Below, piece after piece: positions 949-19,653 of a stretch of DNA of 25,397 nucleotides; the first letter of the stretch is position 1; every line of letters starts with the position of its first letter. The notes under the pieces are model-generated. The model was not told where the DNA came from and made no database searches. It saw only the letters and a list, made by a program, of their open reading frames with translations. The stretch spans positions 129,318 through 154,714 of the forward strand of contig NW_003151765.1 in assembly GCF_000003605.2 (NCBI RefSeq). Reading direction: 5' to 3'. A program made the position numbers and the translations under genes. Source of the stretch: Saccoglossus kowalevskii (taxonomy: Eukaryota; Hemichordata; Enteropneusta; Harrimaniidae).

Positions 949-1521
949 CTATGATGGGGTCTGGGGTTTTACTTCCCGGCCGCACACCCCTGTCAAACTG
1001 AAAGGCCAGTGTCTCCCCCGGGACCCTATCTTTCTCAGGGTTTCGCTAATAATATTTAACTCCCTACCTTTTGTAGGTTCGTCGTTTTCAGAATCACTAT
1101 TTGCATCTACCGGCCAGCTGGAGGTCTTCACATAGCTTCCCACACGCCATTGCTGTATAACTTTTTCAATCTCCCGTTTGAATGCCATACCATTGCGAAC
1201 TGTGACACAATGGCCATCGATTGATGTTATTCGGCGGACCCTACTATCATCGAGGCACTCCAGTTTTCGAACAACAATTTTCTCGATAATATCTAAACTC
1301 TCCAGCAATTTGTACAGGTAAAGACGTCTGTTCCCAGCGTAGACTCGCCATGTCCCGTCCAGTTGTTTAAACACAGCAATCTCTTGCAGCGAACTGGGTG
1401 TTATATTTCCGTGAAGTAGTTGCTGGAGTGTAGATACAAGCGGTGTACCATCTTTGAAACAGTCCTGTATTAAATCCTTCGAGTACCGAATGTCGGAAGG
1501 CTTCAGCTCTACAAACCTCAT
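949..1521 (-). CDS. ParB/sulfiredoxin-like fold protein, intronless
   Basis: An uninterrupted 190-codon frame, ATG at 1521 and TAG at 949-951. The N-terminal 90 residues have the layout of the ParB/sulfiredoxin fold as found in small animal and protist proteins: a short beta element near residues 6-12 (LKPSDIR), a YSKDLIQDCFKDG helix, a central hydrophobic strand followed by DGTWRVYAGNRRLYLYKLLE (residues 55-74), where the NRRL pair takes the place of the ligand-binding loop, then a beta strand IVVRKLE. Residues 91-190 are polar and low in recognisable motifs, with an acidic patch SDSENDE near 142-148. I know of no assigned role for this animal variant; nucleotide or phosphate binding is only implied by the fold. 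The GC-rich stretch at 1630-1800 lies upstream and could be its promoter. It could also be the single coding exon of a larger gene. Confidence 0.5.
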   Translation of the reverse strand: MRFVELKPSDIRYSKDLIQDCFKDGTPLVSTLQQLLHGNITPSSLQEIAVFKQLDGTWRVYAGNRRLYLYKLLESLDIIEKIVVRKLECLDDSRVRRITSIDGHCVTVRNGMAFKREIEKVIQQWRVGSYVKTSSWPVDANSDSENDEPTKGRELNIISETLRKIGSRGRHWPFSLTGVCGREVKPQTPS

Positions 1522-2029
1522 ATTATTTCCGATTAAACAGTTGCTGCGTTTACACTCAGAAAACTAATACATTACTAAAGTGTTAGTAGTCTGAGGTTTA
1601 CACGGCAGCATTTAGCCTGACATGTAGACGTGAGTATGCCCTCGCCGGCCGAACGGCATCAGTGTGTTGGGTTTGAAGCACTGCGGAGGGCGCAACGCAC
1701 GCGACCTCGGCAGGCTGGGCAGCAGTTTTTACAGTCAGGCCATGGAGGTAGGAGGTCAGGCCGAACGAGAGCCGAGATATGCCAGAGCCGAACGAAACAT
1801 GTACAGCGACCTAAAATATTTAGTAATAATAATAATAACTTTATTACGCAACTTAACCGTCTGTGGGTTTAGTAAGGTAAAAAATGATTACAAAAGACAA
1901 ATAAAACAAGACACACTGAACGCTAAAAAAATACACTGAAATTCAACAAAAGAAAGAAAGAAAAATTAGAAAACCTCTGAAAAATTGATTAAACAGCAGC
2001 AAGGTTCTCCCAGACCACAGTTACATATT
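1522..2029. other. Intergenic, GC-rich patch then AT-rich
   Basis: Bases 1630-1800 are unusually GC- and CpG-rich for this window, with repeated GCCGAACG words, and lie just upstream of the minus-strand ORF at 949-1521, as a promoter would. An (AAT)5-like run at 1822-1838 follows. Short overlapping open frames at 1630-1939 look incidental. Confidence 0.4.
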
Positions 2030-2720: not shown

Positions 2721-3043
2721 GGTCTATTCAAAAGTTTGTTTAAACATTTTTTATTTAACTGTTTTCTCCATGATTGAATAAATTCATTTGTTAGCTTAGT
2801 TTTTACAACATTGGTTAGTTGATTTATAACATTGTTGATCTTGTAAGTTTCTTTTATTTTAGACAATTTATTTTCTCCAAAAATTGTTTTTATTTGAGTA
2901 ATCCAGGCAGAATTATGTTGTATTTCCTTTAATGCACATTTTAATATGTGATTTTCAGGAAGCAAATTTATTCTGTACCAGTATTTAACCTTTGAAACCA
3001 TTGCATTTATTCTTACTGGTAATCTACCTAGTACACCCCTCAT
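2700..3043 (-). pseudogene. LINE ORF2 post-RT segment
   Basis: In a shifted frame overlapping the end of the RT piece by four bases, the residues RGVLGRLPVRI then KVKYWYRI then WITQIKTIF match the post-RT region of LINE ORF2 proteins (family pattern GxLGRxPl..I..KYWxRl). The match ends near NRPFSVHCEN, where the inserted inverted-repeat element begins. Confidence 0.7.
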
Positions 3044-4044
3044 ACCAACTGATGGTGTAAATTTACTAACACAATAAAACGATAATAATTAATACAAACT
3101 TGCTCTAGGTTATTTGTGTCATTTGTTAGTTCACCTGCCCAAATTTCTGGCCCATACTTTAGAATGGGTGTAACAAAATGATCAAATAATTTTAAACAGA
3201 ATGAAGTTGAAATCATTTTATGACTCAGTATAGTTTGTCTAATGGCAAATAATGTCTTCATTGCTTTATTGTTTAGCATACAATAGTTTGTTTTAAATTT
3301 TCCATTCGGAGTGAATATCATACCCAAATAACAGAACTCCTTGACTGGTGTTATGTTTTTACCATCTATAATAAAAGTTTGATTTTTCAGTATTCTGTTA
3401 CTTGTGTTGAATATCATCACTTTGGTTTTCTTAACATTCACATCAAGATTCCAGGTTTTACAATAGTCTGCTAATTTATTCAGACAATTTTGTGAACCCT
3501 CTGCAGTCTGTGAAAACAAAACAAGATCGTCTGCATATAAAATAGAGTTTAAGGGTTTATCACCAATCATGATTGGTGTATCACCACTTTTACCAAAATG
3601 ACCTGGAAGATCATTGATGAATATGTTAAAAAGGGTGGGTGAGATATTACAACCCTGTTTCACACCACATGTGCACTGAAAACCTTCTGTTAAATCATTT
3701 GACATCTTTACCTTGTAGTTTATGTTATTGTACATGGATTTAATGATTTCATAAATGTTACCATTTATTTCTAAATTTTGTAATTTTAGGAATAATGCCT
3801 TTCTCCAGACGCTGTCGAAAACTTTTCTGAAATCTATAAAACATGAGTACATGCGTTTTGGTTTATCAGAATTTTTTCCTTGAGTGCTGTACAATGTTTT
3901 ATCTATAGCTGTTTTAAGTAAAAATATATCATCTGTTGTGCGTCTCTGTTTTTTGAAACCAAACTGTACTTGTGTCAGTAAATCATTTTTTTCCAAATAA
4001 GATGTCAGCCTTTGATTTAATATGCTGGTAAATAATTTGGCCAT
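3040..4044 (-). pseudogene. LINE reverse transcriptase palm and thumb fragment
   Basis: A 334-codon frame. Visible RT motifs in order are AKLFTSILNQRL (residues 2-13), QFGFKKQRRTTDD (27-39), CFIDFRKVFDSVWRK (motif A, catalytic Asp in FID), GVKQGCNISPTLFNIFINDL (motif B), ILYADDLVLFSQ (motif C, YADD), and NVKKTKVMIF plus EFCYLGMIF (thumb side). In an intact element it would copy RNA into DNA at a nicked target. The first methionine is internal to the family alignment: upstream in the same frame EGRIIC continues the match before a stop, so this is a fragment of a longer ORF, not a gene. Confidence 0.88.
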
Positions 4045-4063
4045 ACAAATAATTCTCCCCTCA

Positions 4064-4375
4064 TTAGAATATGATTAAATATTTTAGTAAAGATTTGTTA
4101 ATTAAATTATTATCAATTTTAAGCATTTCATTTGTGATGCCATCTTCCCCTGCAGACTTATTATTTTTCAAATTTGTTATTGCATTAATAATTTCAGACT
4201 TTTTAATCTCTTCGTTCAACACTGCATTGTAGTTTTTTAAGTTCTCCTTTGCTAATAAGTCTTGGTCAGTTTTATTACTATTAATGTTATTATTATTATA
4301 TAGCTTATTAAAGGGATCCATAAAAGTTTCACTTGTTATAATGGCATCAGATTTTCTATTTTCTGCATTTCTCAA
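4064..4375 (-). pseudogene. LINE reverse transcriptase, fingers fragment
   Basis: A 103-codon remnant. Its C-terminal half carries the LINE RT block around NNKSAGEDGITNEMLK (LKNNKAxGxDGIxNEmlK in family members), preceded by a LNEEIKKSEIINAI helix. The following conserved stretch (usually WxxGxIxPIxKxGDxxxPxNYRGI) is missing before the next piece starts at 4044, showing a deletion and frameshift. Confidence 0.8.
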
Positions 4376-8092: not shown

Positions 8093-8303
8093 ATGATGAC
8101 ACCGTCGCGGAAGAGTAAACGGAAACGAAAAAAGAAATCTTCAAAGGATCCACAATTCAAGAATACACATAGAAAAGATGGGACGTCCAGTATACCTGAC
8201 AAGCTGCAGGACCATAACAAGCCGCCAATAGTTGCTAATGTCACCAAAAGTAGAAATGTTATAGTAGGGAATCACAATATCATGAATGTTAACATAAATT
8301 CTG
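8093..8303 (+). CDS. Exon 1: basic N-terminus and RHIM-like motif
   Basis: Encodes residues 1-70 plus one base, ending at donor CTG|GTAAGT. The N-terminal [15 protein letters not shown] could act as a nuclear-localisation or acidic-membrane-binding patch. Residues 55-68 read [14 protein letters not shown] and fit the RHIM layout [IV]-Q-[IV]-G-x-x-N-x-[ML] except that the glutamine is isoleucine. The motif is preceded by a proline-containing linker (HNKPPIV) typical of a disordered tether. Confidence 0.75.
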
Positions 8304-10472
8304 GTAAGTCAAGTAACTGGAGACTCATTTTCAGTTGGTTATAACCTCATTCTTCGAGGTTACGCTAAAACATAATATTAACATCACGTTTGGGTAATGT
8401 GGGTTGTCGTTTTTAATGCCGGTTGTCTGCGGTAGAGGTATTAAAACGTATTACGCAAAGACCTATGGGAAAAAGAATGTCCTGCCGGAACGCAGCCGAG
8501 CGTTTTGGCCATTTTTGGGCGTGATTACTAGTATTAGATTTCAGTTGCGCCACTAACGGTGCGAAAGCATGTTTTAAACTACTAGTACTATCAGTACTAC
8601 CAGAGGTACATTACTTGGGGTTTGCAACGCGCATAGTACTGTATGGTGACATCACAGTCAGCCGGCGCACACGTGATAATAAAATAAATACGATATTTAC
8701 TATATGGGGGCCGCCATCTTGAATGCAGCATAAAACTAAATAAGAGACAAGTTGTGAAACGCGTTTTTCAGATTCCTACAAATCAGGACAAAAATACCAA
8801 TCTTTCACAAAAATACGATCCGTTGGGGTTATATTAAGCCAACCGATAACAAAATTCGGCCGAATTCGGCGTTTTTGTGTGGAAAAATCCCTTACATACG
8901 AACACCTAGTTACACGATGAACCTAGAACACTAAGCCGGGGTATTTGAAACCGAAATTGTCATCTAAGTGTAAGCCGTCGCTGATTGGCTGCTGAGCTGG
9001 AATGACAATTTTTGGTTTCAAATACCCCTGGAAAGTGTTCTATGTTCTTCGTGTAAAACAAAAGTGACATGTGTACCAACCTGAACACACTTTCTGTTGC
9101 ATGATTTCATATTTATGAACATCACCGTATTTATTTCGTAAAAAATCATAAAGTTTATACGCATATAATCTTTGTTTGACCAAAATGTGGTGAGTCACCA
9201 CATTTTTTATGCAAATTACAGACATATGCAAATTACGGTGTGACAGTGGTGAAAACCCGAACGAGAGGAACGGAAGTGAGGGCGCCGCCAGTGTTTGAAG
9301 TGTGCCTTCTGACATGACACAGGCGGTTTGTAATAAAACATGTATTACCACATTCGTAGTAAAAAATGTAATACATCGAAAATGTACAGTTATAGTTATA
9401 GTTATCGTAATCCGTCATGTCGTGAGCAGCTAATTTGATCCACCTGGACATCCCAGTATCCTAGTTACCTCGGGCATGCGCATTCGAAAGCGAGATTGAA
9501 ACGGGATCTTGGTATCATGTCACCGTAGTTGCAAACCCCAAGTAATGTACCTCTCGTACTATATATATATATTCGTTTAACCTCCTCTCATTAGTAAATA
9601 GCGCCCTCACTCCACAATATTTAGAATGAGTGGTTGGTCAAAAGTTTGATGAGTCAGGTGCATCTATTGGCTAAGCTTGTTGTACATAAATGCAAATGAG
9701 TATACCATTAATGCTGTAGGGTGTACTGGGAGGGGTGGAGGATTTCATGTTTGTAATGACTGGTTGTAATGCGGTATCTCGTTGTTTTCAAGATGCAGCC
9801 TGATATTTGTTGCTTTCTTGGTTGTTCAATTGTGGCTAAAATTTGTGTGGTGAGTGGAAGATGTGTTTATTGTTTGTTGAGTCATTATTTAGATACCCTG
9901 CAGCTTGAAATGGTATGGTCCAAATCCAAATTCGATATGGTGGTGTTGAAAATCTGTGCGATATGGCAGTGTCATCTAAAACCAGCATCAAAATGATTTC
10001 TGTTTATTTATTTACTGTTGTAGATCCTGAGAACTAGCCATTGAATATGATGTCGGGAATAAATGGTTTTCTGAACAAGCTTTATTAATTATTGCTGGCA
10101 ATATTCCAGTATGAATTGGGAGCAAACTGTGACACCAAATCTAGTCGTTGTATTGTTATGCTTCTAAAATATTTTTCTTTAAATAAAATAAATTAAATAG
10201 AAATATCATGTGTATTTTTGTATGTGGAAACATGGCTTGCCCACTAAAAAATATAAAGAAGTGTGGTCTGCAGCTCTTTTTTTTTTAATTTTTTTTATTT
10301 GTGAAAAAAAACTGGAGTGTAAACAATAAAACACTCACAGTGCAAGGCTAGCTCACCAACATGTCTATTCTCTTGCTTGAGTGTGAAAGTACATGGTTTA
10401 GTGACTACCTCTTATATTTTTAAATTTTAGATTTTTTTTTTATTTGGGATGGTTCTTCTATAAAAATAGAAC

Positions 10473-10566
<94 letters not shown>

Positions 10567-13500
10567 ACCTTCAGCGTGCTTTGCGATTTTGACCTTTGTA
10601 CTGGCGTGCGTCACAGGCCACTTTCTCTCCCTATCTGTCGGCGTTGACAGAAAATGACAGAAAACAACAACAGAAAATTACTAATATGCACACTGTACAT
10701 TGTTTCCCGTGAATTGTAACTCTTGTACACGACTGATCGTTGTTCAGTAACTCGGATGACGAGTCAACTAATAACACGACGCCTACATACAGTGGGAATG
10801 ACGACAATTTCATATTTTCCTGGAGAAAACGGAGCCAAATATCCACTTTAATTTTTTCATCATTCACGAATTATTGCCTCCTGAAAATGTTAATGTCACA
10901 AAAATGAAGAAATTGTTCATAATTAGTATGACTATAACAACCGGTATTGAAGATACAGTCATTGTTTCTTTGGCTTTTAGAAAAAGCAGTGCAAAGATTA
11001 TAAACATTGTGACCATTGTAATTAAACTATAAATTATAAAAATATTAATTATAATTATGATTTTTTTAAATTAATTATAAATTATTAAGTCCTAAAGAAA
11101 ACATCATGATTTTCGTGTACTTATACTCTTTTTTNNNNNNNNNNNNNNNNNNNNNNNNNNNNNNNNNNNNNNNNNNNNNNNNNNNNNNNNNNNNNNNNNN
11201 NNNNNNNNNNNNNNNNNNNNNNNNNNNNNNNNNNNNNNNNNNNNNNNNNNNNNNNNNNNNNNNNNNNNNNNNNNNNNNNNNNNNNNNNNNNNNNNNNNNN
11301 NNNNNNNNNNNNNNNNNNNNNNNNNNNNNNNNNNNNNNNNNNNNNNNNNNNNNNNNNNNTGTGACCATTGTAATTAAACTATAAATTATAAAAATATTAA
11401 TTATAATTATGATTTTTTTAAATTAATTATAAATTATTAAGTCCTAGAAAACATCATGATTTTCGTGTACTTATACTCTTTTTTTCTGTTCGTTGTGATG
11501 TATATATACTTCATCGTGTGTAATTCACTTATTGTTTAGATTTTGCCGAGAGTGGAACTCTTGCATTCGATGTCAACCCTGTTGTACAAACTATAAGGCT
11601 GAAAATTGATATAGGGCTACGGAGGAATGGCAATCGTAACACGCAAATATTTCACAAGGCGGAAAAAGAAATACTGAAAACACAAGGAACCGAAGAATTC
11701 CGCAACGAGTGTTGTGACCGCTACAGCGCCGGTTCTGTAACCCTCACATGTGGGTGCGTGGAACTGTCAATGGAGATCAACGACAAAGCGGGTCTCTGGA
11801 GGCTGAAGAGAGAGCTGGAAAATGGAGAATTCGTCAAACTTGTACAGAGAACTCTGATCACGCAGCAGATGACACAAGTAGCAAAGACGAGAAATGTCGT
11901 TATAAAGGTCACTATCGACGACGAACAACTGAAACATATTACAACAATATTACAGAAAAAAGGTAAGCAGTGTACGACCGATAAGCATTGAATGCATGAA
12001 CTTACTAAGTGATAATTATAACTCGATGTTAAAGGGCGGTAGTCGTCGCGCAGCGCGTGTTCGAATTTCATGTAAACAAACAATGTATTTCACATGTTTG
12101 TCAGTATACGTCGATGTGAGTCCCATATCGAATAGAACGCGGTGCGACGACCACCACCCTTTAAATTCAGAGTTTACCAAAAACATCGAGTTATGGACAA
12201 TCTGTATTATTACTATTATTGTTGTTTTTGTTGTTATCGAAGTTCGGTTAAAGCGGGAGGGTCGTCACCTGCGCACACGCGGGAATTGAGTCCCAAGCGA
12301 CGATAACAACACACACTAAAAACTCAAAGGCTCATGGGTAGACGCTTGTTTGTTGACAAGCTATGGCTATCTGACGCATGCGCAGGTGACGACTCCCCGC
12401 TTTAACTGTTAATTGGACATCAAGTATAGTGTGGTCAGTTTTGTAACTTGATGGCCGTAGCTCCAACAATTCAGGCACACCTAACTTGTGCTTTTTTATC
12501 CTTATCATTATGATGATAACATACGCTTATAATATGTGTGCACTATAGATGCGCGATGTTTGTATTTCCGGAATGACGCGTGCATATTTCAATCATCTAT
12601 TCTCTGAAGACTACTACTGTTTTTAGACAGCGAACAAAATCAAAGCCATTTGCCCACAATCAGTGATATTCACTATATAGGGGGTAGCCAGCTGTCCAGA
12701 GAATGTTTTATTGGAAATCGTCACCAAACCCTTCTCGCTATACCATAATGGCTTTTATTTTATCACTTGAACACCAGCTGAATGTGCATTTGCTACTATG
12801 ATGCAAACGTTATGTTACGTGTCGTATTTGCGTTATCTGATTCATCAGTTTGTCGTTCTTGTGAAATGTATACATTTTATCGTTTCTATGTTAGCTGTAG
12901 GTGCCAGTAAAGCTACTCTGTGGAAACGCATGTTAGATTCTGGTAATTCAAAACTTCGGAATATTTCTAAGTTCAAAGTCAAGGTGAGCATTCTGCAAAA
13001 TATTCAACACGAGTTTGTAGCGTTTTAAGTTTTACGTTGAACTGCCCCCAGACATACAGTGAAGGGCAGAAACCCGGGGACGGTTTGAATATACATTTTT
13101 ATAATTCAAGATGGCTGTTAGATTTTAATCGAGCAATCCAGAATTACTTAATATTGTAACATCGTACTTAGTCCTAATTATTATTAATGTATTAGTTCGA
13201 CGTCATCCAATCAGCCGGCACTTCATTTTGCATAGGTGGGTGGTCGCAGTTGTCACGTGCAAGGCATTCATTTGTTGAGCTATTATTTTATAAATATGTT
13301 TATAAACTAAGGTGCCGCCTTCTGTGACATTATGTCATCAATTTATGTGTTCATTGCAGATACCACGCTGGATGGTGACATTATGTCATCAATTTATGTG
13401 TTCATTGCAGATACCACGCTGGATGGTGACATTTTATTACGTTCTTTTGACGCTTTTAATCATGTTATTAATATTAACACAACTGATGAAGTCCAGAGAC

Positions 13501-15085
13501 CGGCTTCTTTTTCTCGAGTCGTGTATTGGTACTGTCGAAGGAGAAGACAGATGTGTGGAACTATGGATTCCATTTGTTGGTATTTTAGACAATGACCAGC
13601 CACTTTACTGGTCATGGTGCGTTCTCCTGAAAGATATCCATTGTATTGATTTTCCGTCCTTCTCCTCGTGGAATGAGCAGATGTTCCGGCTTGTGGTTAC
13701 AGAATTAGTCATCTTGTCATTTGTGCCCGTCATTCTATCATCATCCCGCTACCCAAAGAAAGCTAAAGAACAACAGATAAGAGTAGCCACGTTAATTTTT
13801 GTCAGTTTCTGCCTTGCAGTCATATGGTGCCTAGACTGTACTATTGTATATATGGGCTTCCGACAAACAGATCATTCGTGGTCGATTTTAGGAATTGTGG
13901 AATTGCCGCTAGCTGTTACATTTATTGTATCCATCATCGCCGCTCGACCGAAGCTTACCAGGGCGTGTGATTTGTTAGTCTGTGTGTCAGCTATCAAGTA
14001 CACCATAGAAACTTTGATAGATGCAATCAAAGTAACCAAGCTGGTTCTGACAATGTATCGTAGTTGGAGTAATGATGAACACCTGGTGGTCAGTGCAGTA
14101 ATACTTGTGTTAGCATCATTAACACGGTGAGTTCATTCAAATAATTGAGTCCCAAGTGACGACGGCAACGCACATGAAAAACGCAAAGGCTCCGTAACTT
14201 TTCATCAATTTATGTAGTCCGCCATCTTGATACTTTAGAAAGGATTATAGGTAAAGTGTGGCATCATAGAGTCTGTTGTCAGAAATTGAGAAAATGATTT
14301 CATCTATAGCTTCAAAAGTTGAGCTTCAAATTGGCTGAAAGTTTGGAACATGCGTGGTAGCATATATGTACTGGTGCCAAACTTGCTTCTAAAATAGTTG
14401 TCATGGAAATAGAACTGAAAATATTTATTTTTATGTTTTTCTACCAAATGATCAAATTTTCTTAATATTGTATGTAATTTACCGATGTGAGTAGGTTATA
14501 TAGGTGATATATTACCTGTTGACCACTAAAAGGTAACAAAAAATTGTCATACTATATTTCACAACCAAAATAACAATTTTTATTTTTTTAACGTGTTTGG
14601 CAATATCGTCACTTTATGTATATTTGCAACATTTTAATTTCCATTACTACAATTATATACATGAGTAATATGCACAACGCAAATTTGAACTAATTCGTAT
14701 CAATATTTCTTATGTCTAGGATGTCAAACTTTCCTCATAATCCTTTGCCTGAGAATCAAGATGGCTGACTACATAATACTGATGAAAATTTGAATATCTA
14801 GAGAATGAAAAGTGATATAAAAAAACTGTAAATTGCATTCCCCTACATTTGTGGAGCTTTTTCTTGAGGGGTCATTATGTTGATTGGCATGATGTTTCTT
14901 TAAACTGAACTCATTTTATTACTTCTTACAGAGTGTGTGTTATTTACGTGCTGATACGGAAGCTGCATCTGTTCCAGGGAGTAAATTGCAGAGGAAAGAC
15001 GCAGAATAAAAATGTCGTTGATAGGAAGCAAGACTCCAGGGAGGAATATCAACGGATAATATCCGGTCTGGACAACGTAGACTAA
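8093..15085 (+). CDS. RHIM-like / TRADD-N / multi-pass membrane protein (5 exons)
   Basis: Join 8093-8303, 11540-11962, 12901-12983, 13360-14126, 14932-15085: about 545 residues. All introns are GT-AG and all junction phases agree (G|AT Asp71, G|GT Gly212, phase 0 before Ile240, CG|A Arg495). Domains: basic lysine/arginine-rich N-terminus (6-18); RHIM-like motif (55-68); TRADD-N-like domain (about 72-211); linker (212-260); hydrophobic domain with about six membrane segments near 264-282, 348-366, 381-404, 424-443, 452-472 (weak) and 481-503; a charged tail to 545. TRADD-N couples TNF-receptor signalling to TRAF in vertebrates, and RHIMs form amyloid-like assemblies in RIPK and TRIF signalling. 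A membrane-tethered innate-immune or cell-death adaptor is inferred, not shown. Two start codons are adjacent (8093, 8096). An exon lost in the N gap of intron 1 cannot be excluded, though phases do not require one. Confidence 0.75.
8255..8296 (+). other. RHIM-like amyloid motif (codons 55-68)
   Basis: V56, V58, G59, N62 and M64 sit where the RHIM cores of RIPK1, RIPK3 and TRIF have their hydrophobic pair, glycine, asparagine and methionine or leucine. I57 replaces the usual Gln. Alternating hydrophobic and Asn residues suit a stacked beta arch. The identification is by pattern only. Confidence 0.65.
8910..9058. repeat. Large hairpin: inverted repeat with about 55-bp arms
   Basis: The arm at about 8910-8963 (TAGAACACTAAGCC, GGGGTATTTGAAACC, ATTGTCAT) pairs with the arm at 9002-9058 (ATGACAAT, GGTTTCAAATACCCC, AGTGTTCTA) around a 38-base loop. 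Mismatches are few. It forms the core of the surrounding MITE-like element. Confidence 0.8.
9182..9233. repeat. Perfect 25-bp palindrome with AP-1 core, two octamer motifs
   Basis: AAAATGTGGTGA-G-TCACCACATTTT at 9182-9206 is a perfect inverted repeat with a one-base centre. Its centre is TGAGTCA, the consensus AP-1 site. ATGCAAAT, the POU octamer, follows at 9209-9216 and again at 9226-9233. The sequence match is certain; regulatory use is speculative. Confidence 0.6.
10475..10563. repeat. (TA)44 microsatellite
   Basis: An uninterrupted alternating AT tract of about 89 bases inside intron 1. The Tyr-Ile open frames across it on both strands are artefacts of the repeat. The true length is uncertain in any assembly. 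Confidence 0.95.
11008..11484. repeat. Gap flanked by near-identical 127/125-bp copies
   Basis: Sequence at 11008-11134 (from TGTGACCATTG to ACTCTTTTTT) recurs at 11360-11484 with one 2-base difference (CCTAAAGAAAA versus CCTAGAAAA). Bases 11135-11359 are all N. Two copies exactly abutting an N run usually mean that overlapping contigs or haplotypes were not merged; a genuine tandem repeat is the alternative. Confidence 0.9.
11540..11962 (+). CDS. Exon 2: TRADD-N-like domain
   Basis: Encodes residues 71-211 plus one base, from acceptor TTGTTTAG to donor AAAAAAG|GTAAGC. The core aligns by eye with human TRADD residues of about 50-120. [12 protein letters not shown] (135-146) is the central strand. 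[20 protein letters not shown] (156-175) matches the helix pair beginning RFLRAYREGAL in [18 protein letters not shown] (189-201) is the next strand, and [10 protein letters not shown] the closing helix. In TRADD this alpha-beta domain binds the TRAF2 TRAF domain. The first 60 residues of the exon form a preceding strand and helix. Conservation of the TRAF-contact residues cannot be judged here. Confidence 0.7.
12029..12164. mobile_element. Short MITE, TTAAAGGG-ended family, copy A
   Basis: TTAAAGGGCGGTAGTCGTCGC at 12029-12049 is matched by the inverse GCGACGACCACCACCCTTTAA at 12144-12164. The element is about 136 bp and lies in intron 2. TTA/TAA at the ends would suit the 3-bp target duplication of PIF/Harbinger-type MITEs. 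Related copies are at 12248-12405 and 18211-18397. Confidence 0.75.
12248..12405. mobile_element. Short MITE, TTAAAG-ended family, copy B
   Basis: TTAAAGCGGGAGGGTCGTCA (12248 on) and the inverse TGACGACTCCCCGCTTTAA (to 12405) continue into CCTGCGCA/TGCGCAGG, giving arms of about 28 bp. It lies 83 bases after copy A in the same intron. Its inner sequence GAGTCCCAAGCGACGA recurs at 14147. Confidence 0.75.
12901..12983 (+). CDS. Exon 3: short basic linker
   Basis: An 83-base exon between GCTGTAG and AAG|GTGAGC. It completes Gly212 and encodes residues 213-239, [20 protein letters not shown] and then ISKFKVK. It is basic and possibly helical, connecting the TRADD-N-like domain to the membrane part. 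It is supported by phase agreement on both sides, not by homology. Confidence 0.65.
12984..13359 (+). other. Intron 3
   Basis: A 376-base intron from GTGAGC to TTCATTGCAG. Its last 36 bases are the intronic part of copy 1 of the 51-bp tandem duplication, so the next copy supplies a second, identical acceptor downstream. Confidence 0.7.
13324..13425 (+). repeat. Perfect 51-bp tandem duplication spanning a 3' splice site
   Basis: Two identical copies, 13324-13374 and 13375-13425, plus the first 8 bases of a third. Each holds 36 bases ending in TTCATTGCAG and 15 bases ATACCACGCTGGATG. The unit is 17 codons long and free of stops, so acceptors at 13359 and 13410 both keep the frame. The upstream acceptor adds 17 residues ([17 protein letters not shown]). 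Confidence 0.97.
13360..14126 (+). CDS. Exon 4: multi-pass membrane domain
   Basis: Encodes residues 240-494 plus two bases, ending ACACG|GTGAGT. Hydrophobic segments: [19 protein letters not shown] (264-282), [20 protein letters not shown] (348-367), [20 protein letters not shown] (382-401), [20 protein letters not shown] (424-443), a weaker [20 protein letters not shown] (453-472), and [13 protein letters not shown] (481-493), which continues into exon 5. The 65-residue loop after the first segment has four cysteines (294, 304, 316 and 324 approximately) and could be lumenal or extracellular with disulfides. I do not recognise the fold as a known channel or receptor. Animal TRADD-N proteins can carry a dedicated membrane domain, and this may be one. 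With the second acceptor (13411) the exon is 51 bases shorter. Confidence 0.75.
14127..14931 (+). other. Intron 4
   Basis: An 805-base intron from GTGAGTT to ACTTCTTACAG. At 14147-14193 it has a partial copy of the inner part of the MITE at 12248 (GAGTCCCAAGTGACGACGGC, then CGCAAAGGCTC). The rest is AT-rich and unremarkable. Confidence 0.7.
14932..15085 (+). CDS. Exon 5: end of last membrane segment and tail
   Basis: The first base completes Arg495. Then [16 protein letters not shown] (496-511) extends the last hydrophobic segment across the splice junction, which is good support for the join. The tail to residue 545 is hydrophilic ([16 protein letters not shown]) and stops at TAA 15083-15085. 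Confidence 0.75.
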
Positions 15086-16744: not shown

Positions 16745-18175
16745 AGAGGACTTATCATGCGCATATTCTCCTAAAATGAGCTCTATGCGCATTACAGAAC
16801 GTAAGTCTATCTATAACAATCACAAGTACTATAGAAAAGAAAAACAAATTAAAACTAGTAAAATTTACTACAGTGATATTCTTAAAAGATGAATTTGAGA
16901 CTGAATGGCGGATTGAGAAGGGTATGCAATTCCAAATGTTTGGACCTGAATATTGGAATGCACGTTCACCGTATGATTTCGTTTTGGTGCGTGATTTCGT
17001 TAATAAACGGTCGTCTGATGACGAACGCAATTGTCTAGCGGGATGGTATTTATCATAGAAAATCTGACAGGTGTCGTGAGTCAATGTAACTTATTGATAA
17101 GTAGCACAAACTTCACATTTTATATTCAATACGTCTGTTAACTAGGAGCCAGTGAAGCGATTTTAATAGTGGTGAAATGTGAGAAGATAACCCTTGCTTG
17201 CAGACAAGACGAGCTGATGAATTCTGAACTCGTTGAAGTGTCTTTATCAAATAGTCAGGGCATCCGGCTAATAAGATATTGCAATAGATAAGACGAGATA
17301 GTATAAGAGCACAGGCGTTAGTTTGTGTTGCTTTTGGTGTAAGATAGTGGCAAATAGAATAAATACGTCTCAGTTGAATTTAGCATGATTTGCATATATT
17401 ATGTACTTGCTGTGACATATTGATATTGCAATCAAGTGTGGCACCAAGATTGCAGACTGATGAGGAGAAAGAGATAACAAACTCGCCAATGGACATCATC
17501 GAGGCTAGTAAAGATCTAGATGCTACTTTTGATGAGCATACAAGCATAGCCTCGGTTTTTGAGTCATTAAGTTGTAATTTGTTCTTTGTCATCCATTTTT
17601 TGATGTCGGTGAAGCAATTCTGGACAATCATGATAGTTGAACCAATTTGATGAACATTAGTGTGTGTGTATAGTTGATTGTCATCGGCAAAGGCGCGATG
17701 ATTCATTGAATGTGCTTTAACAATATGTGGAACACCGAAGTGCAATGGTGATGCATCCGACTTCACACCATTAATACAATTGGTCTGTGATCTTCCAATC
17801 AGATATGACTCGAACCAGGTAAGCGCTAACGATGTAATGCCAAAAATGTGTTCGATGTAGTAGAATCGTGTGGTCGATGGTGTCAAAGGCAGCGGGAAGG
17901 TCCAATAAAGTCAACATTCTGACCTTCCCCTTGTCTACCGCGTTCAGAAGGTCATTAACGATTTTTAGTAAGTCGGTTTCTGTACTGTGGTGTGATCTGT
18001 ATGCAGACTGTAGTGGGTTCAATAGGTTGTTGGAAACTAAATGGTCATTTAACTAAAGTAGGACGATTTTTTTCTGTAATCTTTGAGAGGAACGATACAT
18101 TGGAAACGGGACAATAGTTCTTTAAATCCACAGGGTCGAACGATGGCTTTTTAATTAAGGGCATATACATAGAGT
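16745..18175 (-). mobile_element. Second decayed LINE, CR1/L2-like group
   Basis: The minus strand reads through the RT of a CR1/L2-like LINE in order: MPLIKKPSFDPVDLKNYCPV (about 18170-18110); [20 protein letters not shown] (about 18035); [19 protein letters not shown] (motif A); [27 protein letters not shown], where the QGSVLGP block and about 20 residues are lost; RAFADDNQLYTH (motif C); WMTKNKLQLNDSKTE. The unlisted interval 17370-17120 has ATQTNACALILSRLIYCNIL and LQRVQNSSARLVC, and 17060-16880 the C-terminal YHPARQLRSSSDD, GERAFQYSGPNIWN. Frameshifts and stops break it repeatedly. It is 5'-truncated and lacks the endonuclease. Confidence 0.9.
17380..18022 (-). pseudogene. LINE reverse transcriptase fragments
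   Basis: Two overlapping frames (18022-17771 and 17886-17380) hold the RT core. The motif A aspartates ([13 protein letters not shown]) and the catalytic pair in AFADD survive. The motif B glycine-rich loop after GVP is deleted, so the enzyme is dead. The frameshift lies near 17830, before FGITSL. Confidence 0.85.
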
Positions 18176-19462: not shown

Positions 19463-19653
19463 ATCGCTTCTCGGCCTTTTGGCTAAGATCATGTGTAGTA
19501 TCTGTTCTTATCAGCTTAATATCTGATACGCTGCTCATTGAGTAGCTCGATATTAAACTGATTTTTGGAAACTGGCCATGGAATAGGGGCTTGCTCCGTC
19601 CTGGCCACGGATCGACCCGGTATTGCAGTACTTCCGGGAACGGTCCACCTCCT
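19463..19653 (+). ncRNA. U2 spliceosomal snRNA
   Basis: Begins ATCGCTTCTCGGCCTTTTGG, the invariant U2 5' end. Next come the branch-point recognition sequence GTAGTA (19495-19500), stem IIa (ATCTGTTCTTATCAGCTTAA), the Sm site ATTTTTGG (19561-19568), stem III (AACTGGCCATGG with its partner CCTGGCCACGG) and stem IV (ATCGACCCGGTATTGCAGTA, then CTTCCGGGAACGGT). The length of about 191 bases matches animal U2. Stem IIb is the divergent part (TACGCTGCTCATTGAGTAGC), still able to pair. A 3'-box-like AATAAAAAAATAGATTG follows at 19660-19676, which argues for a functional polymerase II snRNA gene rather than a processed pseudogene. No poly(A) tail or truncation is seen. Confidence 0.96.

Follow-up and report, generated by a model that had tools for sequence, protein, structure and literature searches.

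In vertebrates, fibres built from the RIP homotypic interaction motif (RHIM) and the adaptor TRADD operate in the same TNF-receptor pathways but are carried by separate proteins. A gene of the hemichordate Saccoglossus kowalevskii raises the question whether elements of both kinds can be joined in a single membrane protein. The gene is located on the plus strand at positions 8093–15085 of a 25,397-nucleotide stretch of NW_003151765.1, and this whole stretch, which is part of contig C4182 of the 572-Mb genome, is called the window in the following and provides all coordinates. An earlier note on this DNA had described a basic N-terminus, a RHIM-like motif, a TRADD-N domain and a multi-pass hydrophobic C-terminus encoded by five phase-matched exons, with neither a death domain nor a kinase. 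The explanation that we prefer, with a probability of roughly 0.48, is a membrane-resident TRADD-N adaptor which carries a RHIM-like element in the slot that a death fold occupies in its sister genes and which may work similarly to the insect receptor PGRP-LC.

Gene model

The five exons all show GT–AG borders and join into a single frame of 528 codons followed by a stop codon, separated by introns of 3236, 938, 427 and 805 bases. Exon 1 (8093..8303, start codon at 8093) encodes residues 1–70 plus one base, with a lysine- and arginine-rich N-terminus followed by the RHIM-like motif, and ends in phase 1. Exon 2 (11540..11962, residues 71–212) is a phase 1–1 module with the TRADD-N-family domain, exon 3 (12901..12983, residues 212–239) encodes a basic linker toward the membrane domain, exon 4 (13411..14126 or 13360–14126, residues 240–478) covers hydrophobic segments 1–5 and most of segment 6, and exon 5 (14932..15085) contributes the rest of segment 6, a basic C-terminal tail and the stop codon. 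In a small codon-usage test, for which 1211 codons of other exons in the genome served as training set, the annotated frame ranked first among the three possible ones in each of the five exons. The scores were matched by fractions of 0.0085, 0, 0.029, 0 and 0.054 of the random background windows (exons 1–5, n = 2000 windows), with exons 3 and 5 being less decisive due to their short length and the null being lenient because background windows were penalised for stop codons. At the level of the sequence the five-exon gene is thereby confirmed as real, as is its continuous frame with matching phases.

Two assembly features touch the gene model. Intron 1 contains a gap of 225 N (11135..11359) between two copies of a 92-bp direct repeat (11008–11099 and 11360–11451) with 98% identity, which are possibly an unresolved duplicate or a haplotype join. 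An exact 51-bp tandem duplication (13324..13425, plus strand) doubles the exon-4 acceptor, so that the exon can start at 13360 or at 13411; use of the first acceptor inserts 17 in-frame residues and leads to a frame of 545 codons with the stop kept. The duplication might be recent, an assembly error or a source of alternative splicing. A 50-bp dispersed repeat with 84% identity is found in intron 2 (12284–12333) and intron 4 (14143–14192).

The gap and the tandem duplication have to be considered for the explanation that two genes have been fused in the model, with exons 1–3 forming a soluble TRADD-N protein and exons 4 and 5 an unrelated membrane protein. The model was derived from genomic sequence and not from transcripts, one intron holds the gap, the exon-4 acceptor lies inside the tandem repeat and an ATG (residue 244) is found near the start of exon 4. 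The exon 3–exon 4 junction itself nevertheless shows GT/AG borders at 12983/13411 with a matching phase across what is the shortest intron of the gene, and exon 3 is free of stops before its donor in the frame used, which is also the frame preferred by codon usage on both sides of the junction. We therefore regard a fusion as very improbable.

TRADD-N domain of exon 2

Sequence comparison confirms that exon 2 encodes a TRADD-N-type domain. Its relation to other domains of the genome is well supported, and the one to TRADD itself is indirect. Using exon 2 as query, a genome-wide search led to one other place, locus C303 (E 1.6e-5), and the reverse search from C303 returned the window at E 1.4e-5 together with six additional places whose E values range from 0.0013 to 0.98, the majority not being significant alone. 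A second TRADD-N-type domain was found by eye in the flank of locus C4614. We compiled eight of these domains from the same genome into a hidden Markov model (HMM), leaving out the window and not including C3686, a further locus that is over the cut-off of Pfam TRADD-like_N and looks NCOA6-like by eye. This HMM recognised exon 2 with 54.0 bits (E 4.4e-15), the best of 5000 shuffles reaching 13.4 bits, and hhalign of exon 2 against the same eight-relative alignment gave a probability of 95.7 and E 1e-8. In leave-one-out HMMs all nine domains were recovered by the other eight with 20.2 to 89.2 bits, the second domain of C4614 being the weakest.

The connection from this family to TRADD runs via the Pfam model TRADD-like_N (PF20694), which matches the N-terminus of human TRADD at E 1.3e-12. 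It also detects four of the eight relatives individually, with E values between 0.00087 and 0.026 that stay below its cut-off, and misses the remaining four. The TRADD-N turn motif, described in PMC8195603 as a tiny residue plus Ser, or sometimes Cys, at the β2–β3 turn, also has a counterpart in exon 2, as Gly-Cys is found at this position (residues 142–143; 11752..11757, plus strand). In the respective column of alignment A2 five of the eight rows show C and one shows S; the remaining two show I and T with an S one column earlier.

Several results weigh against this assignment. Pfam scans of the whole protein and its parts yielded no match of exon 2 to a TRADD model, the hits being non-significant and to unrelated families, and for the relative at C935 two weak families without relation to TRADD-N score above PF20694. 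Human TRADD-N was recovered neither by an eight-member alignment including the window (hhalign probability 1.3) nor by a nine-member HMM, which scored it with 1.2 bits and an NCOA6-like sequence, likewise not recovered, with -0.1 bits. Pattern-based scans of viral contigs and of bacterial and archaeal genomes, having a reach of close relatives only, revealed no relative. As direct Pfam matching and the recovery of human TRADD both fail, the superfamily link rests on the sub-threshold PF20694 matches. The TRADD-N call of the earlier note can thus be upheld through the relatives in the same genome and not through a direct Pfam match.

The TRADD-N superfamily has a two-layer alpha+beta (RRM-like) fold. 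A single-sequence AlphaFold2 model of exon 2 had a pLDDT (predicted local distance difference test) of 35 with no residue at 50 or above, a quality too low to speak for or against this fold. Searching PDB sequences with exon 2 produced a single match (E 1), and the eight-relative profile gave 21 rows with no TRADD among them. The best of these rows, a designed helix bundle at E 0.0042, looks like helical noise and was set aside.

RHIM-like motif of exon 1

The ten-residue motif in exon 1 (residues 55–64; 8255..8284, plus strand) has the tetrad VIVG at residues 56–59. Its core VIVGNHNIM is close to IQIGNHNYM of RIPK1, with the tetrad glutamine absent, and it shares G-N-H-N-x-M with the RIPK1 chain of PDB 8ib0. 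On a matrix built from five RHIMs, the motif scored 13.4 bits, a value that was reached by 9 of 5000 whole-protein shuffles and 7 of 20000 exon-1 shuffles. Among 190910 residues of open reading frames (ORFs) from 172477 fetched bases one site scored higher, at a locus that had been fetched by the RHIM model itself. TRIF, when left out of the matrix, scored 10.0 bits and thus below the motif of the window. A tetrad lacking the glutamine also has a precedent in VHIG of PGRP-LE and IMD, two of the mosquito proteins with a cryptic RHIM for which thioflavin T fluorescence in cells is described (PMC9531809). From the sequence the motif is a plausible RHIM-like element but not a proven RHIM, and a resemblance of this degree is unlikely to arise by chance.

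We use the term RHIM-like because the tetrad glutamine, a defining residue, is missing, and this is the first of the points that speak against a functional RHIM. The core tetrad is given as (V/I)-Q-(V/I/L/C)-G (PMC9444067), and VIVG fits at positions 1, 3 and 4 but has I in place of Q, which places it outside this definition. With the E threshold set to 10, the 42-residue stretch was not matched by the Pfam model RHIM (PF12721), and RIPK1 and RIPK3, left out in turn, reached 25.8 to 32.7 bits on the matrix on which the window motif scored less than 14. In human RIPK3 certain single tetrad changes, TQIG and VQSG, are described to abolish NF-kB activation, and Q is retained in every variant named in that work (PMC12119088). 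In the genome search with the RHIM model (15 candidates scored) the motif was not among the two matches, which were found at E 0.49, just over the cut-off, and at E 5.45; as both sites contain an internal stop, the genome offers no convincing RHIM partner either. A PDB sequence search with exon 1 gave no match. The RHIM of the earlier note is thus supported in part, as the tetrad lacks its Q and the Pfam model reports nothing.

The main rival explanation starts from here: the motif could be a chance resemblance and exon 1 a basic tether or nuclear localisation signal, making the protein a TRADD-N adaptor of the endoplasmic reticulum or inner nuclear membrane. The N-terminus is indeed as basic as previously claimed, with 17 lysines and arginines among the first 55 residues, and a genome search with the exon-1 stretch revealed no second copy. 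PMC8195603 moreover places DEDD2 in the nucleolus and lists NCOA6 among the transcription coactivators, and the missing Q and the silent Pfam model fit this explanation as well. It has to account for a score that hardly any exon-1 shuffle reaches and that is exceeded once in all ORF residues searched, and for the position of the motif, which falls into a slot where five of seven sister loci have assembly domains (see below). We consider it unlikely, even if it is the strongest of the alternatives.

Exon modules and sister loci

Exon 2 is in phase 1 at both start and end. Across the nine TRADD-N exons the top-ranking donor is always in phase 1, with one tie, and the best acceptor, judged by pyrimidine content, is in phase 1 in seven of nine; phases 1 and 0 tie in the window and phase 1 comes second in one of the C4614 exons. 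Going by these predicted borders, all nine exons can be read as phase 1–1 modules.

A DED or CARD is located upstream on the same strand in five of the seven other TRADD-N loci, namely a DED at C4670, C4178, C1613 (below the Pfam cut-off) and C1348 and a CARD at C303. At C4614 and C935 no upstream DED or CARD was seen by eye among ORFs of at least 72 residues, with one upstream ORF of C4614 being scanned, and the C935 contig starts less than 2 kb upstream of its TRADD-N exon. Downstream of the TRADD-N exon we found NB-ARC at C4614, NHL repeats at C4178 and, on the same strand, ZU5 and Death at C303. Order and strand suggest that these neighbouring domains belong to the same genes as the TRADD-N exons. 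With a DED or CARD preceding TRADD-N at most sister loci, the RHIM-like exon of the window would occupy the slot of a homotypic-assembly domain.

Within the window gene, neither the complete 528-residue protein nor any of its parts matched Death, DED or CARD at an E value of 10 or less. Scans for hidden death-fold or kinase exons covered three ORFs in intron 1 and four upstream ORFs, leaving out TA-repeat ORFs, gap ORFs and one overlapping upstream ORF, and found none. The lack of a death domain or kinase stated in the earlier note thus holds for the protein and for the seven ORFs scanned.

Some of the sister loci deserve a note of their own. At C303:8000-27000 a CARD, TRADD-N, a weak fn3, ZU5 and Death follow each other in one orientation, possibly as one large UNC5/PIDD-like adaptor gene. 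C4614:622000-641800 shows two TRADD-N-type exons and then NB-ARC, which could be an NLR-like gene with tandem TRADD-N. C4178:315000-334800 holds a DED, TRADD-N, NHL repeats and then a second DED exon just under the Pfam cut-off, possibly as a result of local expansion. At C935 a hydrophobic ORF that follows the TRADD-N exon might have represented another membrane form; judging by eye we left it aside, as a donor-like site comes before the hydrophobic stretch.

Membrane region

The multi-pass hydrophobic C-terminus was borne out by six segments (residues 244–262, 330–348, 367–385, 398–416, 427–445 and 464–482), five of them strong and the one at 427–445 weaker. A low-confidence AlphaFold2 model of the region, made without relatives, shows six long helices (pLDDT 44.6). 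Assuming the N-terminus to be inside, 18 lysines and arginines are found near the membrane on the inside and 9 on the outside, counting 15 residues of each terminal part and extending segment 6 to residue 486. From hydropathy and charge both protein ends are predicted to be cytosolic, and the 67 residues that connect segments 1 and 2 (263–329; 13480..13680, plus strand), four of them cysteines, are predicted to form an extracytosolic loop. Against Pfam the membrane region gave no significant match, the only one listed being DUF6377 at E 1.3, and a genome search with exon 4, run to E 0.1, returned the window itself as sole candidate and thus no second copy.

The membrane part could also be the effector itself, if oligomerisation via exon 1 and TRADD-N opened a pore or channel that kills or depolarises the cell. 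A multi-pass C-terminus at the place where sister loci have other modules such as NB-ARC or NHL repeats would suit such a role. The cysteine-bearing loop, however, is equally compatible with a sensor, and as the region has neither a significant Pfam match nor a second genome copy, nothing positive speaks for a channel. We thus judge an effector function to be improbable.

Comparison with known systems and proposed function

PGRP-LC is located in the membrane, as is predicted for the window protein. Its N-terminal domain carries a cryptic RHIM that forms amyloid, and the motif class is described to tolerate changes in the tetrad (PMC9531809). The two proteins differ in that PGRP-LC has a peptidoglycan-recognition part, in place of which the window protein has TRADD-N and the predicted six-helix region. 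By analogy, PGRP-LC may be regarded as the nearest working counterpart.

Vertebrate TRADD has a C-terminal Death domain and is not known to have a membrane region. It resembles the window protein in having a TRADD-N-type domain in a signalling adaptor, although direct sequence similarity was not detected and no Death domain was found in the window protein. RIPK1, RIPK3 and TRIF represent the RHIM side, with G-N-H-N-x-M shared with RIPK1, but the window protein is without the kinase, the Death domain and the tetrad Q. Outside vertebrates, RIPK1 homologues with a RHIM tetrad are described from zebra mussel, Lingula and lancelets (PMC12119088), and a study of two nemertean data sets reports no RHIM in them (PMC9835746).

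The closest relatives by family are the invertebrate TRADD-N proteins with their DEDD2 and NCOA6 clades (Kaur et al. 2021, PMC8195603), which share with our data the presence of TRADD-N in several genes of one genome, mostly with DED or CARD nearby and once with NB-ARC. The constant regions in that account usually pair a Death-like domain with TRADD-N, and the domain layout of the sister loci agrees with its picture of metazoan TRADD-N proteins; RHIM does not occur in its main text (PMC8195603). The S. kowalevskii genome also holds the animal immune domains CARD, DED, ZU5 and Death. STING is a multi-pass protein. Membrane forms of TRADD-N have been described as a single-helix protein of Crassostrea virginica and as fusions to STING (PMC8195603), and a polytopic TRADD-N protein as such may therefore not be new. 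For the architecture of a RHIM-like motif, TRADD-N and six membrane segments we recognised no description in a literature search.

Taken as a membrane-resident adaptor, the gene would encode an integral-membrane signalling protein of the invertebrate TRADD-N immunity and cell-death family. It would be held in the membrane by six helices, with its N- and C-termini on the cytosolic side, as hydropathy and charge suggest. If the membrane part clusters or senses a change, the RHIM-like elements would be brought together and could stack into a homotypic or heterotypic fibre or seed a partner, and TRADD-N may then, as it does in TRADD, bind an adaptor of the MATH/TRAF type or another one and so relay the signal.

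Other features of the window

Reverse-transcriptase ORFs flank the gene at 3043–4074 (minus strand; RVT_1, E 2.6e-33) and 17383–17910 (minus strand; E 2e-5, below the cut-off), and an association of TRADD-N genes with retrotransposons has been reported (PMC8195603). A full-length match to U2 spliceosomal RNA (Rfam RF00004, 189.4 bits) is located at 19463–19653 on the plus strand. The 204-residue open frame at 949–1563 (minus strand) looks ParB-like to the eye, and Pfam returned nothing for it up to E 0.1.

Conclusion

A bolder version of our explanation, which we put forward tentatively as possible, is that an exon-shuffled member of the TRADD-N family has had its death-fold slot replaced by a RHIM-type amyloid element and has gained a private six-helix domain, resulting in a one-protein sensor and adaptor that nucleates amyloid signalling at the membrane and unites the branches of RHIM and TRADD in one polypeptide. 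Provided that the motif functions as its sequence suggests, the membrane itself would house a hub for cell-death or immune signalling. The symmetric exon phase would offer a simple genetic route for cassette swaps and, if the bolder version is true, amyloid and death-fold assembly elements may be interchangeable cassettes in animal immune adaptors.

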